Shown here: piece after piece, positions 7,700 through 23,050 of the stretch | How the letters are laid out: every line of letters begins with the position of its first letter | Position numbering within the stretch: the stretch's first letter is position 1 | Origin: Streptomyces sp. P9-A2 | GTDB taxonomy: Bacteria; Actinomycetota; Actinomycetes; Streptomycetales; Streptomycetaceae | DNA length: 64,000 bases | Direction: 5' to 3' | Assembly (NCBI RefSeq): GCF_036634175.1 | Contig: NZ_JAZIFX010000001.1 | Location: forward strand, 4,960,001 to 5,024,000 | The notes under the pieces: generated by a model | The model's input: the letters and a program-made list of their open reading frames with translations, nothing else | The model's database searches: none | What the model was told of the DNA's origin: nothing | Translations under genes and position numbers: made by a program

Positions 7700-7722
7700 T
7701 TGTCAGTGGGGCGCCCTAGACT
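7700..7722 (+). promoter_or_regulatory. RecA-independent DNA-damage (PafBC-type) promoter of pcrA
   Basis: TTGTCAGTG (7700-7708), eight bases, then TAGACT (7717-7722) exactly fits the mycobacterial RecA-NDp motif tTGTCRgtg-N8-TAnnnT, which is activated by PafBC. The -10 ends nine bases before the ATG at 7732, so a transcript from it would be leaderless or nearly so, leaving the GGAGGG at 7724-7729 mostly outside the mRNA. A second, more distal promoter may supply the basal transcript. Confidence 0.75.
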
Positions 7723-7731
7723 CGGAGGGCG

Positions 7732-10272
7732 ATGAGCAGCCTCTTTGACGACAGCTTCCTGGCGGACCTCCAGGGCCGGCGCGGCCCCGCGGACGAACCC
7801 CCGCCGCCACCCGAGGACGATCATGTGCCGGAGCAGGTTCCGGACGATCTGTTCGGCGGGAAGTTCGACGTGTCACCGGACCGGGACACCCACTACCGCG
7901 ACGGCGCCCCGCGCCCGGTGCTGGACCCCGCGGCCCTCCTGGAAGGGCTGAACGACAACCAGCGCGCCGCCGTCGCGCACTCCGGCTCCCCGCTGCTCAT
8001 CGTGGCCGGCGCCGGCTCCGGAAAGACCCGCGTCCTCACGCACCGCATCGCGTACCTGCTCGCCGCGCGGAGTGTCCACCCGGGCCAGATCCTGGCGATC
8101 ACCTTCACCAACAAGGCCGCCGGCGAGATGAGGGAGCGCGTCGAGCAGCTCGTCGGCCCGCGCGCGGGCGCGATGTGGGTGATGACGTTCCACAGTGCCT
8201 GTGTGCGCATCCTGCGCCGCGAGAGCAAGAAGCTCGGTTTCACGTCGTCGTTCTCCATCTACGACGCCGCCGACTCCAAGCGCCTGATGGCCCTGGTCTG
8301 CCGTGACCTGGACCTCGACCCGAAGCGCTACCCGCCCAAGTCCTTCAGTGCCAAGATCAGCAATCTCAAGAACGAGCTGATCGACGAGGAGGACTTCGCC
8401 GCACAGGCGGGCGACGGCTTCGAGAAGACCCTCGCCCAGGCCTACGCGCTCTACCAGTCGCGGCTGCGCGAGGCCAACGCGCTCGACTTCGACGACCTGA
8501 TCATGACCACGGTCAACCTGCTCCGGGCCTTCCCGGACGTCGCCGAGCACTACCGCCGCCGTTTCCGGCACGTCCTCGTGGACGAGTACCAGGACACCAA
8601 CCACGCCCAGTACGCCCTCGTGCGCGAACTCGTCGGCCCCGGAGAACACCCCGCCGAGCGCCCCGGCGAGCACCCCGGCGACGTGCCGCCGGGCGCGGAC
8701 CACCTGCCGCCCGCCGAACTGTGCGTGGTGGGCGACGCCGACCAGTCGATCTACGCCTTCCGCGGCGCGACCATCCGCAACATCCTCCAGTTCGAGGAGA
8801 ACTACCCCAACGCGACGACGATCCTGCTGGAACAGAACTACCGCTCCACGCAGACGATCCTGAGCGCCGCCAACGCCGTCATCGAGCGCAACGAGTCCCG
8901 CCGCCCCAAGAACCTGTGGACCAACGCGGGCACCGGCGCGCAGATCACCGGATACGTCGCCGACACCGAGCACGACGAGGCCCAGTTCGTCTCCGACGAG
9001 ATAGACCGGCTCACGGACGCGGGCAAGGCCAAGGCCGGCGACGTCGCCGTCTTCTACCGCACCAACGCACAGTCCCGTGTCTTCGAAGAGGTCTTCATCC
9101 GGGTCGGCCTGCCCTACAAGGTGGTCGGCGGCGTCCGCTTCTACGAGCGCAAGGAGGTCCGGGACGTCCTGGCCTACCTGCGGGTGCTCGCCAACCCCGA
9201 GGACTCGGTGCCGCTGCGCCGCATTCTCAACGTCCCCAAGCGGGGCATCGGTGACCGCGCGGAGGCCATGATCGACGCCCTCTCCCAGCGGGAGAAGATC
9301 AGTTTCCCCCAGGCGTTGAAGCGCGTCGACGAGGCGTACGGCATGGCCGCGCGCTCCACGAACGCGGTCAAGCGGTTCAACACGCTGATGGAGGACCTCC
9401 GTACGATCGTCGAGTCCGGCGCGGGCCCGGCGACCGTCCTGGAGGCGATCCTCGAACGGACCGGCTACCTCGCCGAGTTGCAGGCCTCCACCGACCCACA
9501 GGACGAGACCCGGATCGAGAACCTTCAGGAACTCGCCGCTGTCGCCCTGGAGTTCGAGAAGGAGCGTGGCGAGGGCGCGGTGACACCGGCGACACCGGGG
9601 GCCGCCGCCCCGGGGAGCACGCTGGCCGACTTCCTGGAGCGGGTCGCCCTGGTCGCCGACTCCGACCAGATCCCCGACGAGGACGAGGACGGTTCCGGCG
9701 TCATCACCCTGATGACCCTGCACACCGCCAAGGGCCTGGAGTTCCCGGTCGTCTTCCTGACCGGCATGGAGGACGGCGTCTTCCCGCACATGCGCGCCCT
9801 GGGGGAGACCAAGGAGCTGGAGGAGGAGCGGCGCCTGGCGTACGTCGGCATCACGCGCGCGCGTGAGCGGCTGTATCTCACCCGCTCCACGCTGCGCAGC
9901 GCCTGGGGGCAGCCCTCGTACAACCCGCCCTCGCGTTTCCTGGAGGAGATCCCGGCCGCCCATCTGGAGTGGAAGCGGACGGGCGCGACGGCGCCCGTGT
10001 CCTCCGGACCGGTGTCCGGGGTGGCGGCTTCGCTGTCGTCGTCCCGGTCCCGCTCGTCGGCGTCGGGCGCCTCCGGCTTCGCCACGCGCAGGGCCGCCGA
10101 GAAGCCGGTGGTGTCGCTGACGGTCGGGGACCGGGTCACGCACGACCAGTTCGGACTCGGCACCGTCGTCGGGGTGAAGGGCACGGGCGGCAACGCCGAG
10201 GCGACGGTCGACTTCGGGGACACCAAGCCGAAGCGGTTGCTGCTGCGGTACGCGCCGGTCGAGAAGCTGTAG
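7732..10272 (+). CDS. pcrA: ATP-dependent DNA helicase PcrA/UvrD
   Basis: An 846-aa superfamily 1A 3'-5' helicase acting in nucleotide excision repair, replication restart and RecA displacement. Visible motifs: Walker A AGAGSGKT (near residue 93), motif Ia TFTNKAAGEM, VDEYQDTN, motif III GDADQSIYAFRGA, QNYRST, and motifs V/VI TAKGLEF and YVGITRARERL. A Pro/Glu/His-rich insert (PGEHPAERPGEHPGD) interrupts the region just after VDEYQDTN and is lineage-specific. The C-terminus (VGDRVTHDQFGLGTVVGVKG) is the Tudor-like tail that contacts RNA polymerase in other PcrA proteins. The promoter is of the damage-inducible PafBC type. Length is slightly above the usual 720-800 aa because of the N-terminal extension and insert. 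Confidence 0.98.
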   Translation: MSSLFDDSFLADLQGRRGPADEPPPPPEDDHVPEQVPDDLFGGKFDVSPDRDTHYRDGAPRPVLDPAALLEGLNDNQRAAVAHSGSPLLIVAGAGSGKTRVLTHRIAYLLAARSVHPGQILAITFTNKAAGEMRERVEQLVGPRAGAMWVMTFHSACVRILRRESKKLGFTSSFSIYDAADSKRLMALVCRDLDLDPKRYPPKSFSAKISNLKNELIDEEDFAAQAGDGFEKTLAQAYALYQSRLREANALDFDDLIMTTVNLLRAFPDVAEHYRRRFRHVLVDEYQDTNHAQYALVRELVGPGEHPAERPGEHPGDVPPGADHLPPAELCVVGDADQSIYAFRGATIRNILQFEENYPNATTILLEQNYRSTQTILSAANAVIERNESRRPKNLWTNAGTGAQITGYVADTEHDEAQFVSDEIDRLTDAGKAKAGDVAVFYRTNAQSRVFEEVFIRVGLPYKVVGGVRFYERKEVRDVLAYLRVLANPEDSVPLRRILNVPKRGIGDRAEAMIDALSQREKISFPQALKRVDEAYGMAARSTNAVKRFNTLMEDLRTIVESGAGPATVLEAILERTGYLAELQASTDPQDETRIENLQELAAVALEFEKERGEGAVTPATPGAAAPGSTLADFLERVALVADSDQIPDEDEDGSGVITLMTLHTAKGLEFPVVFLTGMEDGVFPHMRALGETKELEEERRLAYVGITRARERLYLTRSTLRSAWGQPSYNPPSRFLEEIPAAHLEWKRTGATAPVSSGPVSGVAASLSSSRSRSSASGASGFATRRAAEKPVVSLTVGDRVTHDQFGLGTVVGVKGTGGNAEATVDFGDTKPKRLLLRYAPVEKL

Positions 10273-14449: not shown

Positions 14450-16252
14450 TCAGGACTGTGCGGCCGGGCTCAGTTCCGCCAGCATCGCGGCGCGCAGGCG
14501 CAGGGTGGTGACCAGCCGCTGGAACGCCTCCGACCAGTAGCCACCGGCACCCGGTGAGGCGTCCTCCGCCTCGTCGGGTACGGCCAGGAGCGCATCCAGG
14601 TGGCTCGCGTCCAAGGGCTCGAGGCAGCGCTCGGCCAGGCCCATGACACCGCTGAAACTCCAGGGGTAATTCCCCGCGTCCCGTGCGATGTCGAGCGCGT
14701 CCACCACAGCCCGCCCGAGGGGCGGCGCCCACGGCACCGCACACACACCGAGCAGTTGGAACGCGTCCGGCAGTCCATGTGTCCCGATGAACCCGGCCAC
14801 CCACTCCGCCCGTTCGGCGGCAGCCAGAGTGCCGAGCAGTTCGGCGCGTTCGGCCAGGGACACCGCCCCCGGGCCGCCCGCCTCCGCGGCGGAGGGCTCG
14901 CCGAGCAACGCCTGTGCCCACTCGGCGTCCCGCTGACGCACCGCCGCGCGGCACCAGGCCGCATGCAGCTCGCTCCGCCACTCGTCCCCGACCGGCAGGG
15001 CCACGATCTGCTGCGGTGTACGTCCGCCGAGCCGGCGCGACCACGTACTCAGAGGTGCCGCCTCCACCAACTGCCCTAGCCACCAAGACCGTTCACCACG
15101 GCCCGCGGGGGCCTTGGCCACCACACCGTCCCGCTCCATGCCCGCGTCGCACTCGTGCGGGGCCTCGACCGTGAGCATGGGAACGTCCCGCATATGGTCC
15201 ACGGCCACGCATGCCCCGGCCCGCACCGCCATGCGCCGCGCGAGGGCCGAGCCGGGCAGCGCCGACAGCAACTCGGCGGCCGTCGCCCGTACGTTGCGGC
15301 TGCGGTCGGCGAGCGACTGCTCCAGGAACGGTTCGTCGTCCGGGCCGAGGCGGGTACGGAGCGAGTCGAGGAACATCAGCCGGTCCTCGGCCCGCTCCGT
15401 CGCCCAGGTCGTCGCGAGCAGTTCGCGTGCGGCGGCGGGCTCGCGGGAGCGCAGCGAGGAGAGCAGGGCGACCCGCTCCGCGAAGAGGCCCTCCTGCCAG
15501 AGCCGCAGGACTCTCTCCCTGTCCCCGGGCCCCGGCAGCGACGTGCCCCCACCCGGTGCCGAGCGCAGGGCGAACCGCCAGTCCGGGTTGAGGCGGGCCA
15601 GCCACAGGCCTCGCGGTCCCGCGAACCGCAGGGCCGCCGGCCGCAGATCCGTACGCCCCCGCGCGGCGTCCAGCAGGGCGGGCAACGCCGGCGGGGGCGC
15701 CGCGAAACCGTGGGCGTTCGCTGCCGCGAGCCACTGGGGCAGCAGTTCCAGCAGATCCGGTGCCGCACCCCGGCGGCCACCGCCGGAGGCGCCGGAACGG
15801 TCGGTGAGCAGCGTCGTCAGCCGGCGGGCGGCGGCCGGCGGCAGTTCGGGGCGCGGGTCCTCGGGCGCCGGCCGCGGACGCTCGGCCGCCCTGGCAGGGC
15901 GCAGCCCGGCCCGGCGCCGTACGGTCGCCACGGCCGCCGCGTCCAGCAGGACCGCCGGGGCGTTCGCACCGGGCGCGGAGCCCGCCGGAGTGCGGCGGTC
16001 CGTCCCTAGCAGGGCGGTGGTCACGAGGTCCTCCCAGACGTCCGGGAGGGACGAACCCGACGAGGTCACCGAGTCCGCCGGGCCCGATACGTCCGGGGCG
16101 TCCACCGAGCCTGTCGGGCCCGCCGATTCCGACGAGGTCGCCGGGCCCGGTACGGCAGGGGCGTTCGCCGAGCCCGCGGTGTGCGGGGCGGGGCCGGAGG
16201 GAGTGGTGGCGTGCGGGCCGGACGGTGCCGCGGCGGCGACGGTCCTGTTCAT
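14450..16252 (-). CDS. DUF5691 family protein
   Basis: A 600-aa protein. The ATG at 16250-16252 (MNRTVAAAAPSG) has GGAAAGGAA upstream; the longer open frame is discarded. A disordered Pro/Ser/Gly N-terminus of about 85 residues leads into DVWEDLVTTALLGTDRRTP, the opening motif of DUF5691. The middle contains alpha-helical repeat-like segments such as ADRSRNVRATAAELLSALP, resembling a HEAT unit, which suggests a protein-interaction scaffold. It lies about 100 bases downstream of the SWIM gene in the same direction and should share its damage-type promoter. The family has no established biochemical role; its linkage to MoxR/DUF5682/vWA genes suggests it is part of the same machine. Confidence 0.85.
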   Translation of the reverse strand: MNRTVAAAAPSGPHATTPSGPAPHTAGSANAPAVPGPATSSESAGPTGSVDAPDVSGPADSVTSSGSSLPDVWEDLVTTALLGTDRRTPAGSAPGANAPAVLLDAAAVATVRRRAGLRPARAAERPRPAPEDPRPELPPAAARRLTTLLTDRSGASGGGRRGAAPDLLELLPQWLAAANAHGFAAPPPALPALLDAARGRTDLRPAALRFAGPRGLWLARLNPDWRFALRSAPGGGTSLPGPGDRERVLRLWQEGLFAERVALLSSLRSREPAAARELLATTWATERAEDRLMFLDSLRTRLGPDDEPFLEQSLADRSRNVRATAAELLSALPGSALARRMAVRAGACVAVDHMRDVPMLTVEAPHECDAGMERDGVVAKAPAGRGERSWWLGQLVEAAPLSTWSRRLGGRTPQQIVALPVGDEWRSELHAAWCRAAVRQRDAEWAQALLGEPSAAEAGGPGAVSLAERAELLGTLAAAERAEWVAGFIGTHGLPDAFQLLGVCAVPWAPPLGRAVVDALDIARDAGNYPWSFSGVMGLAERCLEPLDASHLDALLAVPDEAEDASPGAGGYWSEAFQRLVTTLRLRAAMLAELSPAAQS

Positions 16253-16355
16253 CGGATTCCTTTCCGGCGGGTGTCCGCGAGCAGCCGGGGGGTCTCGCGC
16301 ATCGGGTGTGCGGCGATGCCCGAGAGGCGGCCGGGGAGGGGCCCGGTGAGGTGGC

Positions 16356-17714
16356 TCAGCACAGCGGCACCACCTCACCGGGCCCCTCCGGCCAGGCCGA
16401 CAGCGGGGTGAATCCCCGGTGGCCGCATTCGCCGAAGACCTTGACCGGTGCGCCGCCCGAGAGAGCGACGAGACGCCACAGGCCGGGACGGGAAAGCGCG
16501 GCCGGGGTGAGCGGCAGGGCCGCGTCCTCGTCCGCGTCCGCGAGCTGCCAGGAGTCGCCGTCCGGGACCGGTGTCACCCGGTCCAGGGTCACCGGCACCG
16601 AATCCAGCCAGGGGTCGTCGCGCAACGCGTCGCCGTACCGGGCGACGGCCAGGGCCGTCGTCGTCCCGGGAGGCCGTTCGACTGTGGGTGCGGGCGGTGC
16701 GAACTGCTCGCCCAGCGCCGCTCGCGCCTGCCCCGCGCCCGGATAGGCGGACAGCTCCGCGTCCAGGGCCAGCCCCACCGGCAGCGCCGGTTCGGGGGCA
16801 CGCCCCGCGGCGCCGTAGGAGAGGAGCAGCGAGGTGCGCCGCGACCGTGTGCCGTACAGCCAGATCCGGCGGGTCGTCAGACGCGCGTCCACCGTGTCGT
16901 ACTGGGCGAGGACCAGCCAGCGGTCGCGCACCGGCGGACCGTCCGCCGAGGCCGGCAGTCCGATGCGGGAGCGGACCGTCGCGGCCAGGCCCTCCGGCAG
17001 CCGCTCGCGGCGCAGCCAGCCCTGATCGAGGAGGTGGAGCAGCGCGCACTCCTCCAGCAGCCTGGACGGCCATTCCGGACCCGTGCCCGGGACCGCCCCC
17101 AGCTCACGCACCCTGGCGGCCAGTCCCTGTGCCTGGGCGTCGACCATCCGGGCCGCCGTCTCCTCCCACGGGCCGTACCCGGACTGCTCCGCCGTGGCCA
17201 GCCCGCCGCGGAGCAGGTCGGCCAGCCGCTGCTCCAGCTCCGACGCACCCGCCGTGACCCGCTCGGCGCGCCGCTCCGCCCTGCGCCGGGCCGCCTCCGG
17301 ATCGGCGAGCCCGGACGAGGAACCCGATGGGGAGGCCGCGGTCTTCTCCTGCTCCGCGCGCCCGCGTCGGCCCTCGATCCACCGGCCGGCCCACTCCGGC
17401 ACCTCCGCCCGCGGCACCGCCCCTTCGTCGCCCGCCCAGAGCAGCAACAGACCGAGCGCGTGCTTGCAGGGGAACTTACGACTCGGGCAGCTGCATCGGT
17501 ACGCGGGCCCGGAGACGCCCGCGAGGTCGACCACCGTCCGGTACGGCTTGCTGCCGCTGCCCTCGCACAGCCCCCACATCGCCTCCTCGCCCGAACGGCC
17601 GGCCCCGGACCACGGACCGGCCGCGCCGAGTCTGCTTCCCGCCTTGCGCGACGCGGTGTCGGGCGCCAAGGCCAGCACTCGGTCCGCGGTCCAGCGCACC
17701 CCCTGCAACGTCAT
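16356..17714 (-). CDS. SWIM zinc-finger protein
   Basis: A 452-aa protein. The ATG at 17712-17714 (MTLQGVRWTA) lies eight bases past the -10 of the damage-type promoter, which supports a leaderless start and argues against the TTG at 17744. The SWIM zinc finger is seen as C74-x-C76-x6-C83-x-H85 in YRCSCPSRKFPCKHALG. SWIM domains bind DNA or proteins. The remaining 350 residues are helical and Arg/Ala-rich without another known domain. It heads the SWIM-DUF5691 operon, divergent from MoxR-DUF5682-vWA. I infer a substrate- or DNA-recognition role for the cluster. Confidence 0.88.
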   Translation of the reverse strand: MTLQGVRWTADRVLALAPDTASRKAGSRLGAAGPWSGAGRSGEEAMWGLCEGSGSKPYRTVVDLAGVSGPAYRCSCPSRKFPCKHALGLLLLWAGDEGAVPRAEVPEWAGRWIEGRRGRAEQEKTAASPSGSSSGLADPEAARRRAERRAERVTAGASELEQRLADLLRGGLATAEQSGYGPWEETAARMVDAQAQGLAARVRELGAVPGTGPEWPSRLLEECALLHLLDQGWLRRERLPEGLAATVRSRIGLPASADGPPVRDRWLVLAQYDTVDARLTTRRIWLYGTRSRRTSLLLSYGAAGRAPEPALPVGLALDAELSAYPGAGQARAALGEQFAPPAPTVERPPGTTTALAVARYGDALRDDPWLDSVPVTLDRVTPVPDGDSWQLADADEDAALPLTPAALSRPGLWRLVALSGGAPVKVFGECGHRGFTPLSAWPEGPGEVVPLC

Positions 17715-17721
17715 GTCATCG

Positions 17722-17744
17722 AAGGTAGATCCCCCCACTGACAA
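17722..17744 (-). promoter_or_regulatory. PafBC-type damage promoter of the SWIM-DUF5691 operon
   Basis: On the minus strand TTGTCAGTG (17744-17736), eight bases and TACCTT (17727-17722) fit tTGTCRgtg-N8-TAnnnT exactly. The -10 ends seven bases before the ATG at 17714, predicting a leaderless mRNA. Confidence 0.7.
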
Positions 17745-17792
17745 TCGCCCCGGCGATTGCGTTTTCCCAGGTCACAGCGATTGTCAGTGGGG
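17733..17792. repeat. 16-bp perfect inverted repeat between divergent operons
   Basis: CCCCACTGACAATCGC (17733-17748) is repeated inverted at 17777-17792 with a 28-bp spacer. Each arm supplies the TTGTCAGTG element of one of the two divergent damage-type promoters, so the symmetry joins both promoters in one control region. Confidence 0.9.
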
Positions 17793-17803
17793 TGGTGCAG
17801 GGT
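17781..17803 (+). promoter_or_regulatory. PafBC-type promoter of the MoxR-DUF5682-vWA operon
   Basis: TTGTCAGTG (17781-17789), eight bases, then CAGGGT (17798-17803). The -10 deviates from TAnnnT only at its first base. The predicted mRNA start near 17810 gives a leader of about 38 bases with GGAGGGGG at 17831 before the ATG at 17848. Confidence 0.6.
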
Positions 17804-17847: not shown

Positions 17848-18993
17848 ATGACTGTCTCCGTTGAACCGACATCCCTCGACCCGCGTCAGAACGGCTCCGT
17901 GCCCGCGGCCCCGGCCGAGGTCCTGCGGGCGCACGCCGAGGACGCCTTCGCCGCCGAACTCGCCGCACTGGCCGCGCAGGACGACCGTCCGCGGCCCGCC
18001 CGGTGGAAACTGTCCCCGTGGGCCGTCGCGACCTACCTGCTCGGGGACACGCTGGCGGACGGCACCCTGATCACACCCAAGTACGTGGGCCCGCGCCGCA
18101 TCGTCGAGGTCGCCGTCACCACCCTGGCCACCGATCGCGCGCTGCTCCTGCTGGGAGTGCCCGGCACCGCGAAGACCTGGGTGTCCGAGCACCTCGCCGC
18201 CGCGGTCAGCGGCGACTCCACCCTGCTGGTCCAGGGCACCGCCGGCACCCCGGAGGAGGCCATCCGCTACGGCTGGGACTACGCCCGGCTGCTCGCCCAC
18301 GGGCCCAGCCGCGACGCCCTCGTGCCCAGCCCCGTCATGCGCGCGATGGCGGAAGGGGCGACGGTCCGCGTCGAGGAACTGACCCGTATCCCGGCCGATG
18401 TCCAGGACACGCTCATCACGATCCTGTCGGAGAAGACACTGCCGATTCCCGAACTGGGCCAGGAGGTGCAGGCGGTCCGCGGCTTCAACCTGATCGCCAC
18501 CGCCAACGACCGCGACCGCGGGGTCAACGACCTGTCCAGTGCCCTGCGCCGCCGTTTCAACACCGTGGTGCTGCCGCTGCCGGAGACCCCCGAGGCGGAG
18601 GTCGACATCGTCTCGCGCCGAGTGGACCAGATCGGCCGCTCCCTCGACCTGCCGCCCGCGCCCGACGGCATCGACGAGATCCGCCGGGTCGTCACCGTCT
18701 TCCGTGAGCTGCGTGACGGGGTCACCACCGACGGCCGGACGAAGCTGAAGTCGCCCAGCGGCACCCTGTCGACGGCCGAGGCGATCTCCGTCGTCACCAA
18801 CGGGCTGGCGCTGGCAGCCCACTTCGGCGACGGCGTGCTGCGGGCCGGGGATGTCGCGGCAGGCATTCACGGCGCGGTCGTCCGCGACCAGGCGGCGGAC
18901 CGTGTCATCTGGCAGGAGTACCTGGAGACCGTCGTCCGCGAGCGCGACGGCTGGACGGACCTCTACCGGGCCTGCCGGGAGGCCGGCACATGA
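17848..18993 (+). CDS. MoxR-family AAA ATPase
   Basis: A 381-aa AAA+ ATPase. The start ATG follows GGAGGGGG. The Walker A motif is GVPGTAKTW (Gly103 onward). The Walker B region reads VRVEELTRIP around residue 176, with Glu in place of the usual Asp of VDEINR, and sensor 1 is NLIATAN, followed by an arginine-finger region SSALRRRFN. MoxR ATPases remodel proteins together with a vWA-domain partner; the partner is encoded two genes downstream at 21869-23050. The operon is preceded by a damage-type promoter. The acidic Walker B substitution may slow hydrolysis but keeps the catalytic Glu. Confidence 0.93.
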   Translation: MTVSVEPTSLDPRQNGSVPAAPAEVLRAHAEDAFAAELAALAAQDDRPRPARWKLSPWAVATYLLGDTLADGTLITPKYVGPRRIVEVAVTTLATDRALLLLGVPGTAKTWVSEHLAAAVSGDSTLLVQGTAGTPEEAIRYGWDYARLLAHGPSRDALVPSPVMRAMAEGATVRVEELTRIPADVQDTLITILSEKTLPIPELGQEVQAVRGFNLIATANDRDRGVNDLSSALRRRFNTVVLPLPETPEAEVDIVSRRVDQIGRSLDLPPAPDGIDEIRRVVTVFRELRDGVTTDGRTKLKSPSGTLSTAEAISVVTNGLALAAHFGDGVLRAGDVAAGIHGAVVRDQAADRVIWQEYLETVVRERDGWTDLYRACREAGT

Positions 18994-19093: not shown

Positions 19094-21583
19094 ATGGACA
19101 GCGCGGGCGGCATGAGCGGACCGGACCGGCCCGGAGGCGGCCGGGGAGCGGGGCCGCTGCTGCTCGGGGTGCGGCACCACGGGCCGGGGTCGGCGCGGGC
19201 GGTGCGGGCCGCATTGGAGGAGACCAGGCCGGAGGTCGTCCTGATCGAGGGCCCGCCGGAGGCGAACAGTCTGATTCCGTTTGCCGCGGACGCCGACATG
19301 CGTCCGCCGGTCGCCCTGCTCGCTCATGCCGTGGACGAGCCCGGCCGCTCGGCGTTCTGGCCGCTCGCCGAGTTCTCCCCCGAGTGGGTCGCGATCCGCT
19401 GGGCGCTCGAACACGGCGTCCCCGCCCGCTTCATCGACCTGCCGGCCGCCCACAGCCTGGCCTGGGGCAGGGACGAGGAGGCGGACGGGGCGGACGAGGC
19501 GGACGAGGAAGGCACGGCGGCCGAGGGAGATCACGAGGAGCGGGCGACCGGTACCGCGGCGGGCGGCGAGGTGCGGCTCGATCCGCTCGGGGCGCTGGCC
19601 GGGGCCGCCGGGTACGACGACGCCGAGCGGTGGTGGGAGGACGTCGTCGAGCACCGGGGCGTGAGGGAGAGGGGCGACGCGCTCGCACCGTTCACCGCCC
19701 TGGAGGAGGCCATGACGGTGCTGCGGGAGGAACACGGGAGCGGAGGGCGGGACCCGGGCCCCGGTCCTGCCCCGGGTTCTCCTGCGGTGCCGGGCCGGGA
19801 CCTTGTGCGCGAGGCGTACATGCGGCTCCGGATCCGGGAGGCACAGCGTGAGTTCAGGGGCGGTGTGGCCGTCGTCTGCGGTGCCTGGCACGTGCCCGCG
19901 TTGCGGCGGAGGGTCACCGTCGCCGCCGACCGGGCCCTGCTGAAGGGGCTGCCGAAGGTCAAGGCGGACATGACCTGGGTGCCGTGGACGAACCGCAGGC
20001 TGTCCCGCTTCAGCGGATACGGCGCGGGCATCGACTCGCCCGGCTGGTACGGGCATCTGTTCGGCTCGGCGGACCGGCCCGTCGAGCGGTGGATGACCAA
20101 GGTGGCGTGGCTGCTGCGGGCCGAGGACCGGATCGTGTCCTCCGCCCATGTCATCGAGGCGGTACGACTGGCGGACACGCTCGCCGCGATGCGCGGCCGG
20201 CCACTGCCCGGACCGGGCGAGACGACCGACGCGGTACGGGCGGTGATGTGCGAGGGCTCCGACGTGCCGCTGGCGCTGGTGCACGACCGGCTGATCGTCG
20301 GTGACGTGCTCGGGGAGGTGCCGGCGGCGACGCCCGCGGTACCCCTCCAGCGGGACCTCACGCGAGCCCAGCGCAGACTCCGGCTGAAACCCGAGGCCGC
20401 GGACCGTGAGCTGGAACTCGACCTGCGCAAGGAGACCGACGGGGAGCGCAGCAGACTGCTGCACCGGCTGCGGCTGCTCGCCGTGGACTGGGGGGAGCCG
20501 ACGGCCTCGTACGGGAGCACGGGCACCTTCCGGGAGACCTGGCGGCTGCACTGGGAACCGGAACTGTCCGTGCGGGTGGCCGAGGCCGGGATATGGGGGA
20601 CGACCGTACACGCCGCCGCGACCGCCAAAGCCGAGGCGGACGCCGTCGCCGCGCGTGGCCTGGCCGACGTCACCGGGCTCGCCGAGCGCTGCCTCCTGGC
20701 CGCACTGCCCGACGCTCTGCCGACGGTGATGCGGATACTCGCCGACCGCGCGGCCCTCGACTCGGACGTCGGCCATCTTGCCCAGGCCCTGCCGGCCCTG
20801 GTCCGCTCGCTGCGCTACGGCGATGTGCGCGGCACCGGCACCGCGGCGCTCGCGGAGGTCGCCGCCGGGCTGGCGGAGCGGATCCTGGTCGGCCTGCCAC
20901 CGGCGTGTGCCGGCCTGGACGCGGACGCGGCCGCGGAGATGCGGCGCCATCTCGACGCGGTGCACGGGGCGGTCGGCCTCCTCGGTGACGCGCCCGCGCC
21001 GGGCCATGGGAACCTGCGTGTCCGCTGGGCGTCGGTGCTGCGCACGCTGGCGACGCGGGACACTGTGCCCGGGGTGATACGAGGGCGGTCCGTTCGCCTG
21101 CTGCTGGACGACGGGGAGCTGGGGCAGAACGAGGCGGCCCGGCAGATGGGGCTGGTGCTGTCGTCACCGGGCACGGCACCGGCGGACGCGGCGGCGTGGA
21201 TCGAGGGCTTCGTCGGCGGCTCGGGCGGCGGCCTGCTCCTAGTCCACGACGAGCGGCTCCTCGGACTGGTCGACGCGTGGCTGGCAGGTGTACCGGCGGA
21301 GGCGTTCACGGACGTACTGCCGCTGCTGCGGCGGACGTTCTCGGTGTACGAGTCCGGGGCCCGGCGCACGCTGGGCGAGCTGATCCGGCGCGGACCGGGG
21401 GCGCCGAGCGGCTCGGCGGCCACCGGTTCCGGGGCACCCGGGTTCGCGTCCGGCCTCGACTCCGGTCGCGCGGACGCGGTCCTGCCCGTGGTACGGCTGC
21501 TGCTCGGCCTGGACGAGAACACCCGGGGTGGTGAAGGCGGCAGCGGGGACGCGCGCGCCGGCCTGGTCGAGGTGGCGCGATGA
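19094..21583 (+). CDS. DUF5682 protein, predicted Tiki/TraB-like peptidase
   Basis: An 829-aa protein starting at ATG 19094 (MDSAGGMSGPD); a start at 19112 is possible, and the frame upstream overlaps the ATPase gene in another phase. The N-terminal 280 residues have the pattern of the Tiki/TraB/EreA superfamily: GVRHHGPGS with G25-x-x-H28, VVLIEGPPE with Glu52, and a second GxxH at G263-AW-H266 in VVCGAWHVPAL. In that superfamily these residues bind the metal and catalyse hydrolysis. An acidic Asp/Glu linker lies near residues 130-160. The long C-terminal part is Ala/Leu-rich and helical. Between a MoxR ATPase and a vWA protein, it could be the enzyme they load. Family assignment to DUF5682 is firm; the enzymatic inference is mine. 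Confidence 0.85.
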   Translation: MDSAGGMSGPDRPGGGRGAGPLLLGVRHHGPGSARAVRAALEETRPEVVLIEGPPEANSLIPFAADADMRPPVALLAHAVDEPGRSAFWPLAEFSPEWVAIRWALEHGVPARFIDLPAAHSLAWGRDEEADGADEADEEGTAAEGDHEERATGTAAGGEVRLDPLGALAGAAGYDDAERWWEDVVEHRGVRERGDALAPFTALEEAMTVLREEHGSGGRDPGPGPAPGSPAVPGRDLVREAYMRLRIREAQREFRGGVAVVCGAWHVPALRRRVTVAADRALLKGLPKVKADMTWVPWTNRRLSRFSGYGAGIDSPGWYGHLFGSADRPVERWMTKVAWLLRAEDRIVSSAHVIEAVRLADTLAAMRGRPLPGPGETTDAVRAVMCEGSDVPLALVHDRLIVGDVLGEVPAATPAVPLQRDLTRAQRRLRLKPEAADRELELDLRKETDGERSRLLHRLRLLAVDWGEPTASYGSTGTFRETWRLHWEPELSVRVAEAGIWGTTVHAAATAKAEADAVAARGLADVTGLAERCLLAALPDALPTVMRILADRAALDSDVGHLAQALPALVRSLRYGDVRGTGTAALAEVAAGLAERILVGLPPACAGLDADAAAEMRRHLDAVHGAVGLLGDAPAPGHGNLRVRWASVLRTLATRDTVPGVIRGRSVRLLLDDGELGQNEAARQMGLVLSSPGTAPADAAAWIEGFVGGSGGGLLLVHDERLLGLVDAWLAGVPAEAFTDVLPLLRRTFSVYESGARRTLGELIRRGPGAPSGSAATGSGAPGFASGLDSGRADAVLPVVRLLLGLDENTRGGEGGSGDARAGLVEVAR

Positions 21584-21868
21584 CCGACGTACGGCAGCAA
21601 GGCGCATCGCCGCAGAGCCCGCGCGCCCAGGTCACACGAGCCAGGTCACACGAGTTCCGGATGCACGGGCCCTGGACGAAGGCGCCCAGGACACACGAGC
21701 TCCGGACACACGCACTCCGTATGCACGCACTCCGTACGCACGAGCCCTGGACGCACACGCTCCGGACGCACACGCTCCGGACGCACGAGCCCAGGATGCA
21801 CGAGTACAGGACGGACACGCTCCGGAGGCACGCGTCGGCACGAAGGGGCACGGTACGAAGGGGGACCC
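21584..21868 (+). repeat. degenerate 15-bp tandem repeats between DUF5682 and vWA genes
   Basis: Between the two operon genes lie 285 bp made largely of diverged 15-bp units such as CTCCGGACGCACACG (densest at 21640-21830). Because the unit is a multiple of three, all three plus frames stay open across it, including the vWA frame, which has no start codon until 21869. It could be a spacer or an expanded 5' extension of the vWA gene. The ATGA overlap at 21580 could start a His/Thr/Arg-rich repeat peptide, which I do not consider a real gene. Confidence 0.8.
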
Positions 21869-23050
21869 ATGTCGGCTGCGGTGACGGACGTGGAGCAGGA
21901 GCGGCTGCGACGGTGGCGGCTGGTGCTGGGCGGGGGTGAGGCGGACGGCACCGGATGCCGTCTGTCCGGACAGGACGCCGCCATGGACGGAGCCCTCACC
22001 GCGCTCTACGGCAGGGAGGACGGGCCGCGGAAGGGAAGCAGGCCGCGGGCAGGACAGGAGCGCTCGGCGGGGCTGGGGGCGTCCGCGCCGTCGGTGGCGC
22101 GCTGGCTCGGGGACATCCGGACCTATTTCCCGTCCTCCGTCGTCCAGATCATGCAGCGCGACGCCATCGACCGGCTGGGGCTCGCCACCCTCCTCCTGGA
22201 ACCGGAGATGCTGGAGGCGGTCGAGGCCGACGTCCACCTCGTGGGCACCCTGATGTCGCTCGACAAGGCGATGCCGGAGACGACGAAGGAGACCGCACGG
22301 GCCGTCGTCCGCAAGGTCGTCGGTGAACTGGAGAAGCGGCTCGCCACCCGGACCCGGGCCACTCTCACCGGTGCCCTCGACCGGAGCGCCCGCGTCGACC
22401 GGCCCCGTCACCGTGACATCGACTGGAACCGCACCATCGCGGCCAACCTCAAGCATTACCTCCCCGAGTACCGGACGGTCGTGCCCGCGCGGCTCATCGG
22501 TTACGGGCGTGCCGCGCGGTCGGTGAGGAAGGAGGTCGTCCTCTGCGTCGACCAGTCCGGGTCGATGGCGGCCTCCGTCGTGTACGCGTCGGTGTTCGGG
22601 GCGGTCCTCGCGTCCATGCGGTCGATCGACACGCGGCTCGTCGTGTTCGACACGGCGGTCGTCGACCTCACGGACCAGCTCGACGACCCCGTCGACGTGA
22701 TCTTCGGGACCCGGCTCGGCGGCGGTACGGACATCAACCGGGCGCTGGCGTACTGCCAGTCACAGATCACCCGGCCGGCGGAGACGGTGGTCGTCCTCAT
22801 CAGCGACCTCTACGAAGGGGGCATCCGCGACGAGATGCTCAAGCGGGTCGCGGCGATGAAGGCGTCCGGGGTGCGGTTCGTGACGCTGCTGGCGTTGTCC
22901 GACGAGGGAACACCCGCCTACGACCGGGAGCACGCGGCCGCCCTTGCCGCACTGGGCGCGCCGGCGTTCGCCTGTACGCCCGACCTGTTCCCGGAGGTGA
23001 TGGCCGCGGCGATCGAGAAACGGCCGCTGCCGGTACCGGACCCCGTGTGA
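21869..23050 (+). CDS. vWA-domain (MIDAS) protein, MoxR partner
   Basis: A 393-aa protein starting MSAAVTDVEQERLRRW behind AAGGGGGACCC. The N-terminal half is helical. The von Willebrand A domain begins around residue 220 with the metal-ion-dependent adhesion motif DQSGSM (Asp228, Ser230, Ser232). The later Thr is in GGGTDINRAL and the Asp in VVLISDLYEGG. Such proteins bind a divalent metal and act as substrate adaptors for MoxR ATPases. It is the last gene of the MoxR-DUF5682-vWA operon and is separated from DUF5682 by a tandem repeat rather than the short gap usual in the operon. Confidence 0.93.
   Translation: MSAAVTDVEQERLRRWRLVLGGGEADGTGCRLSGQDAAMDGALTALYGREDGPRKGSRPRAGQERSAGLGASAPSVARWLGDIRTYFPSSVVQIMQRDAIDRLGLATLLLEPEMLEAVEADVHLVGTLMSLDKAMPETTKETARAVVRKVVGELEKRLATRTRATLTGALDRSARVDRPRHRDIDWNRTIAANLKHYLPEYRTVVPARLIGYGRAARSVRKEVVLCVDQSGSMAASVVYASVFGAVLASMRSIDTRLVVFDTAVVDLTDQLDDPVDVIFGTRLGGGTDINRALAYCQSQITRPAETVVVLISDLYEGGIRDEMLKRVAAMKASGVRFVTLLALSDEGTPAYDREHAAALAALGAPAFACTPDLFPEVMAAAIEKRPLPVPDPV

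Follow-up and report, generated by a model that had tools for sequence, protein, structure and literature searches.

The divergent arrangement of two operons around a short intergenic region in the genome of Streptomyces sp. P9-A2 raises the question of what the perfect inverted repeat between them represents, one regulatory element or two, and to which cellular response it might connect the genes on either side. In the window (the whole 64,000-nucleotide stretch of DNA that was analyzed), the minus strand carries a gene for a SWIM zinc-finger protein (16356..17714; PF04434) followed by a gene for a DUF5691 protein (14450..16378; PF18944, 587 bits), an ORF that is counted from its first GTG and whose true start may be further in. 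The plus strand carries genes for a MoxR-type AAA+ ATPase (17848..18993; PF07728, AAA_5, 129 bits), an 823-aa DUF5682 protein (19112..21583; PF18934, 978 bits), whose start is placed at 19112 because a protein of that length is listed for this genome, and a vWA protein of the CoxE type (21869..23050; PF05762, 213 bits). The pcrA gene, with its UvrD/PcrA domains, lies on the same strand at 7732-10272. The gene identities proposed in a preliminary description of this DNA (SWIM, DUF5691, MoxR, DUF5682, vWA, PcrA) are borne out by Pfam. In all 75 loci measured, the vWA gene lies behind the DUF5682 gene on the same strand; the two are separated by a gap of -26 to 945 bp in 75 relatives, and here a degenerate 15-bp tandem array (21649-21832) occupies most of it.

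The perfect 16-bp repeat is present as first described, with arms at 17733..17748 and 17777..17792 separated by 28 nt, and pattern matching finds a real outward-facing motif on each strand. The motif is that of RecA-NDp/PafBC-type promoters; the UV-inducible recA promoter of S. rimosus reads TTGTCAGTGGC-N6-TAGggT (Ahel, 2002, quoted in PMC2375139), and computational analysis has since extended the promoter type to 67 genes of S. coelicolor (PMC2375139). The SWIM arm on the minus strand (17722..17743; TGTCAGTG-N8-TACCTT) matches TGTCRGTG-N8-TANNNT exactly, as does a site before pcrA (plus strand, 7701..7722) that the preliminary description had also pointed out. The MoxR arm on the plus strand (17782..17803; TGTCAGTG-N8-CAGGGT) has the same TGTCRGTG core and the same 8-nt spacer, with one mismatch to the TA consensus, a C instead of T at the first -10 base; it is classed here as a CA-type variant, presumed to function alike, and not as a strict member because its -10 element is invariably CA in the relatives described below. 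The pair of promoters proposed earlier thus stands in core and spacing on both arms, while the plus arm is never the canonical TANNNT. The MoxR ATG (17848) lies 44 nt downstream of the plus-strand motif. At the SWIM gene the predicted leaderless start holds, with the in-frame ATG at 17714, 7 nt past TACCTT; a second ATG at 17719, nearer the -10 box, is out of frame. The sequence therefore supports two divergent, putatively RecA-independent damage-type promoters, one for each half of the cluster.

A short motif in a long window may arise by chance, and an inverted repeat may be merely a hairpin. With up to two mismatches allowed, the window holds 7 matches vs 8.2 in shuffles, no signal and the one observation in favor of such a reading. 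The whole 8.39-Mb genome, on the other hand, contains 45 exact TA-type sites, where about 1.1 are expected from base composition and the reversed pattern gives 0. The genome-wide spacing peak is sharp, and both arms occur in nearly all of 83 Streptomyces genomes and at every one of the 77 named loci, at unequal distances from each other; these conservation counts contradict chance or a mere hairpin, to which we give practically no credence. The genes behind the 45 sites agree with a damage-responsive promoter class: 42 were scanned with Pfam, the remaining three sites having no clear ORF, and 19 of the 45 sites precede repair, replication or helicase genes, namely those for two UDG-family glycosylases, RarA/MgsA, RuvC, UvrA, UvrB, UvrC, O6-methylguanine methyltransferase, DnaE, DnaX, an AlkZ-like protein, RecQ, XseA, RecA, PcrA, two more DEAD-box helicases, a RecD2-HHH-domain protein and a SNF2 helicase. 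Transporters, hydrolases and family-less proteins are among the other genes. At 25 of the 45 sites, as at SWIM, the first start of the best ORF lies 5-10 nt past the -10 element. The regulator PafBC is encoded in this genome, where pafC (HTH_PafC over cut-off, WYL, WCX) adjoins a second WYL/WCX gene.

Some of these sites stand before genes outside the repair repertoire. Exact TA-type motifs at seven loci (L019, L022, L024, L028, L081, L086 and L093) precede genes for an MFS transporter, a SUKH-4 protein, a HAD hydrolase, a DUF2797 protein, an ECF-like sigma factor, an ABC transporter and a PIG-L protein, all of which may belong to the regulon without being repair genes. Another (C1:238174-238195, locus L001) lies at a gene for a WGR-domain protein with propeller-like repeats; in E. 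coli, a WGR gene (yehF) is kept beside the yehLMPQ cluster.

The damage response to which the two operons belong might instead be the LexA/RecA SOS regulon, as many Streptomyces damage genes are LexA targets in the account of PMC9380542. No LexA box lies near the starts, however: a search for GAACNNNNGTTC (GAACN4GTTC) with at most one mismatch gave none between 13714 and 21434 of the window, and SOS control of the two operons is judged very improbable.

Whether the two promoters form one operator was examined by comparison within the genus, in 83 genomes of the 96 with a SWIM match. The divergent layout occurs in all 83. By automatic count, the strict SWIM arm is present in 79 of the 83 and the strict MoxR arm in 82, with a SWIM pattern that requires TA and a MoxR pattern that accepts any first -10 base. 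In three of the four SWIM misses detection failed although the arm is visible on inspection (L095, L096, L100; L078, the same place as L100, was left out), and the fourth, like the single MoxR miss, is a one-mismatch form; among all loci inspected, L069, L097 and L205 show one-mismatch forms. Among 80 named loci, which may share species with the other genomes examined, 77 hold both genes, and all 77 have both arms (SWIM, 72 automatically and 5 by inspection; MoxR, the strict CA form in 77). Position -12, the first -10 base, is unconstrained in the MoxR pattern and yet reads C in 94 of 94 MoxR arms and likewise at all 77 named loci. Motif conservation at this position in relatives had been set beforehand as a test of the proposal; it was passed within the family, with a looser SWIM form outside it.

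The preliminary description treated the inverted repeat as the unit. On that view it would be one operator, and a dimeric regulator bound to both arms would control both operons together, a reading that draws on the perfect 16-bp complementarity in the P9-A2 genome. Across the relatives the arms do not behave as a unit: the distance between their TGTC ends takes many values from 17 to 969 bp, inserts of several hundred bp lose neither arm and leave the MoxR motif near MoxR and the SWIM motif before SWIM, and the conserved letters stop at the edges of the two promoters. Because the gap varies and each arm follows its own gene, the arms are best regarded as independent promoters and not as a palindromic operator, which is a highly unlikely explanation; the 16-bp identity is that of two similar promoters standing back to back.

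The constant C in the MoxR arm raises the further question of whether CA-type sites belong to the same promoter class. When TGTCAGTG sites were taken genome-wide whatever follows, with a site pattern that omits sites with G at position 36, 91 sites were found vs 55 for the reversed control. A hexamer NAnnnT stands at spacer 8 in 42 of the 91 and at any other spacer from 4 to 12 in only 0-3; the 42 comprise 22 TAnnnT, 17 CAnnnT and 3 GAnnnT. An ATG or GTG lies 6-10 nt downstream of 14 of the 22 TA sites and 11 of the 17 CA sites, vs 6 of the 49 remaining sites (Fisher 2e-5 and 7e-5, respectively). In addition, TG occurs at spacer positions 13-16, a range picked after viewing the sequences, in 9 of 17 CA sites vs 0 of 22 TA sites (Fisher 1e-4). 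The spacing peak, the start distance and the spacer TG enrichment together make CA-type promoters look like a real subclass in this genome, in which the TG may compensate for the missing T of the -10 element. Genome-wide, 90 sites have a base other than T (A, C or G) at the start of the -10 element, vs 3 in the control; some of the 90 may fall within genes. A motif variant given in PMC2375139, TGTCAGTG-N9-ANG, would admit CA-type sites too.

An alternative is that only the SWIM arm is a PafBC promoter and that some other factor recognizes the MoxR arm through TGGTGCA, a site of its own, in response to a different or additional signal. The MoxR spacer, in which TGGTGCA lies beside the shared core, is indeed far more conserved than the SWIM spacer. 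Moreover, 20 CA/GA sites hand-picked for a TG-like spacer, and hence no fair sample, front mixed genes, many of them non-repair: Pfam scans of 16 of the 20 downstream genes gave a DEAD-box helicase (presumably Lhr-like), an exonuclease, a NADAR protein, a pentapeptide-repeat protein and a mycothiol-S-transferase, beside ordinary metabolic and transport genes. Against another factor, CA-type sites share their core, N8 spacing and distance to the start codon with TA-type sites, and in co-directional relatives the MoxR half sits behind the SWIM promoter. On balance this alternative is unlikely, if worth keeping in mind, and we favor a PafBC-type promoter on both sides, for which the CA-type -10 element would offer a handle on how such promoters are tuned. 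A related site elsewhere in the genome (C1:5898200-5898221, locus L118) reads TGTCAGTG-N8-GAAACT before a NADAR-domain gene that starts 7 nt downstream.

How one cluster came to have two such promoters is suggested by relatives beyond the genus. Outside the family, 65 genomes have a match; in the 20 of them that were examined MoxR is always on the same strand as SWIM and downstream of it (20/20), and DUF5691 is found on that strand in 19, being undetected in one. No MoxR motif with fewer than two mismatches occurs in these 20 genomes. At the SWIM genes, a looser form, TGTC-N12-YAnnnT with a start 5-9 nt on, is present in 17 of 20 vs 13 of 900 control windows; the strict motif is present in only 2 of 20, two genomes from a single genus lack any such promoter at the start, and L171 shows no trace of one, all of which counts against the reading favored here. 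In families f16 and f3, three SWIM genes (L168, L169, L170) start 6-7 nt after TGTCGGAG-N8-CAGAMT, so that the CA-type -10 element stands on the SWIM side outside the family. In families f16 and f4 (e.g., G093, G351, G446, G086), several genomes have the SWIM match within an open frame some 990-1380 aa long, where SWIM may be fused to a neighbor.

Other genera of the Streptomycetaceae were sampled with 20 of 89 genomes with a match, from 13 genera, and three genomes were added later. The strict SWIM arm is present in 15 of the 20, with two mismatches at L194, L208 and L212, one mismatch at L206 and no arm at the usual place at L207. In 14 the layout is divergent and MoxR lies no more than 3.5 kb away; their MoxR arm is strict in 13 (12 automatically and L204 by inspection) and a one-mismatch form in the other. 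In G458 and G464 the divergent halves lie further apart and the MoxR motifs are of the CA type, and in the added genome G453, also divergent, a CA-type motif stands close to MoxR. Four of the 20 genomes, in genera g123 and g126, are co-directional. Genus g126, with its halves contiguous, is co-directional without a MoxR motif (3/3), and g123 is co-directional with several kb extra between the halves (3/3). A MoxR motif is present in two of the three g123 genomes, one of them looser; the third has separated halves without a motif, which counts against retention of a promoter by every separated half. Across the Streptomycetaceae, a separated MoxR half has a motif of its own in nearly all cases. 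In a MoxR tree the outside genomes stand apart (98/95) and g123 clusters with g126 (100/99), with poorly resolved branching in the rest of the family. The simplest reading of these layouts is that a single damage promoter served an ancestral operon of all five genes, which was split in most Streptomycetaceae examined, the order of events being our inference. The split operon would be a natural experiment in which the promoter, and not only the genes, was kept.

Taken together, it is probable that two separate RecA-NDp/PafBC-type damage promoters drive the halves of an ancestral SWIM-DUF5691-MoxR-DUF5682-vWA unit, split divergently in most Streptomycetaceae examined, and the twin promoters point to a role for the cluster in surviving DNA damage. 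In mycobacteria, single-stranded DNA (ssDNA) binds PafBC, whereupon RNA polymerase with the housekeeping sigma factor uses promoters with the -26 motif (PMC11804915). By analogy, with the step from mycobacteria to Streptomyces inferred, damage would produce ssDNA that activates PafBC, PafBC would let the housekeeping holoenzyme use promoters with TGTCRGTG at about -26, and both operons would be switched on together. After the split, the MoxR half would have carried its own copy of the promoter, with a CA-type -10 element, and both halves would have stayed damage-inducible. As for the proteins, a structure model and fold comparison suggest that the C-terminal part of the SWIM protein may be a tandem OB fold like that of RPA70 or of the HIN type. 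The SWIM-OB protein could handle ssDNA and MoxR, vWA and DUF5682 could be its ATP-driven remodeling partner, a weaker step than those before it. A joint reading is offered tentatively, as possible rather than probable: Streptomyces would have PafBC-type promoters of two grades (TA, and CA with an upstream TG), and the yeh-type MoxR cluster, common to E. coli and actinobacteria, would be a damage machine in which an RPA70-like SWIM protein holds ssDNA while MoxR, vWA and DUF5682 remodel whatever is bound to it, its control by damage having mattered so much that the half set apart by the split took a damage promoter with it.

The literature bears on these proposals in several ways. According to PMC9380542, S. 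venezuelae does not conserve the mycobacterial PafBC motif, and the paper leaves open whether such a response exists; the 45-site counts in the present, related genome do not fit that remark, and Streptomyces gains from them a concrete and testable candidate PafBC regulon. In M. smegmatis without pafBC, levels of MoxR1, MoxR2 and a von Willebrand protein are lower (PMC5656591). Searches of the open-access literature found no paper naming DUF5682 or DUF5691, and none among the matches listed that ties this cluster to damage. Streptomyces is already known to have this type of promoter; what appears to be new, the 67-gene list of PMC2375139 and the S. venezuelae expression tables aside, is the set of targets described here, the CA subclass and the keeping of a promoter after an operon split. 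The proposed promoters would place five genes without a known function (those of two DUF families, SWIM, and a MoxR/vWA pair with E. coli relatives) in the RecA-independent damage response.

Compared with known RecA-NDp/PafBC promoters, the locus shares the core TTGTCAGTG, the N8 distance to the -10 element, a repair regulon and pafBC genes in the same genome, and the SWIM arm fits fully; it differs in the MoxR arm, always CANNNT and not TANNNT, in targets that are not repair genes of known function, and in the two outward copies that follow an operon split. A precedent is S. coelicolor SCO6735, which likewise had no earlier link to damage, carries a leaderless-type RecA-NDp promoter and is induced 5-fold by UV (PMC5087735); that case concerns one gene with a TA-type promoter and measured induction, whereas here two operons are known from their sequence. 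The vWA-MoxR-VMAP ternary conflict systems (PMC7159879; mentioned in PMC10910872) also combine a MoxR ATPase with a vWA protein, but the third partner here is DUF5682, the bpMoxR model scores 24.7 bits on this MoxR, below its cut-off of 27, and PADLOC gives no match for the cluster. A related cluster is yehL-yehM-yehP-yehQ of E. coli: genes for MoxR, DUF5682 (YehM, 2.4e-98), VWA_CoxE and SWIM proteins stand together in both, so that the Streptomyces cluster is of the yehLMPQ type by membership, whereas the E. coli cluster has the order MoxR-DUF5682-vWA-SWIM, has no DUF5691 gene annotated beside it and adjoins the DUF4132 gene yehI as well as the WGR gene yehF.
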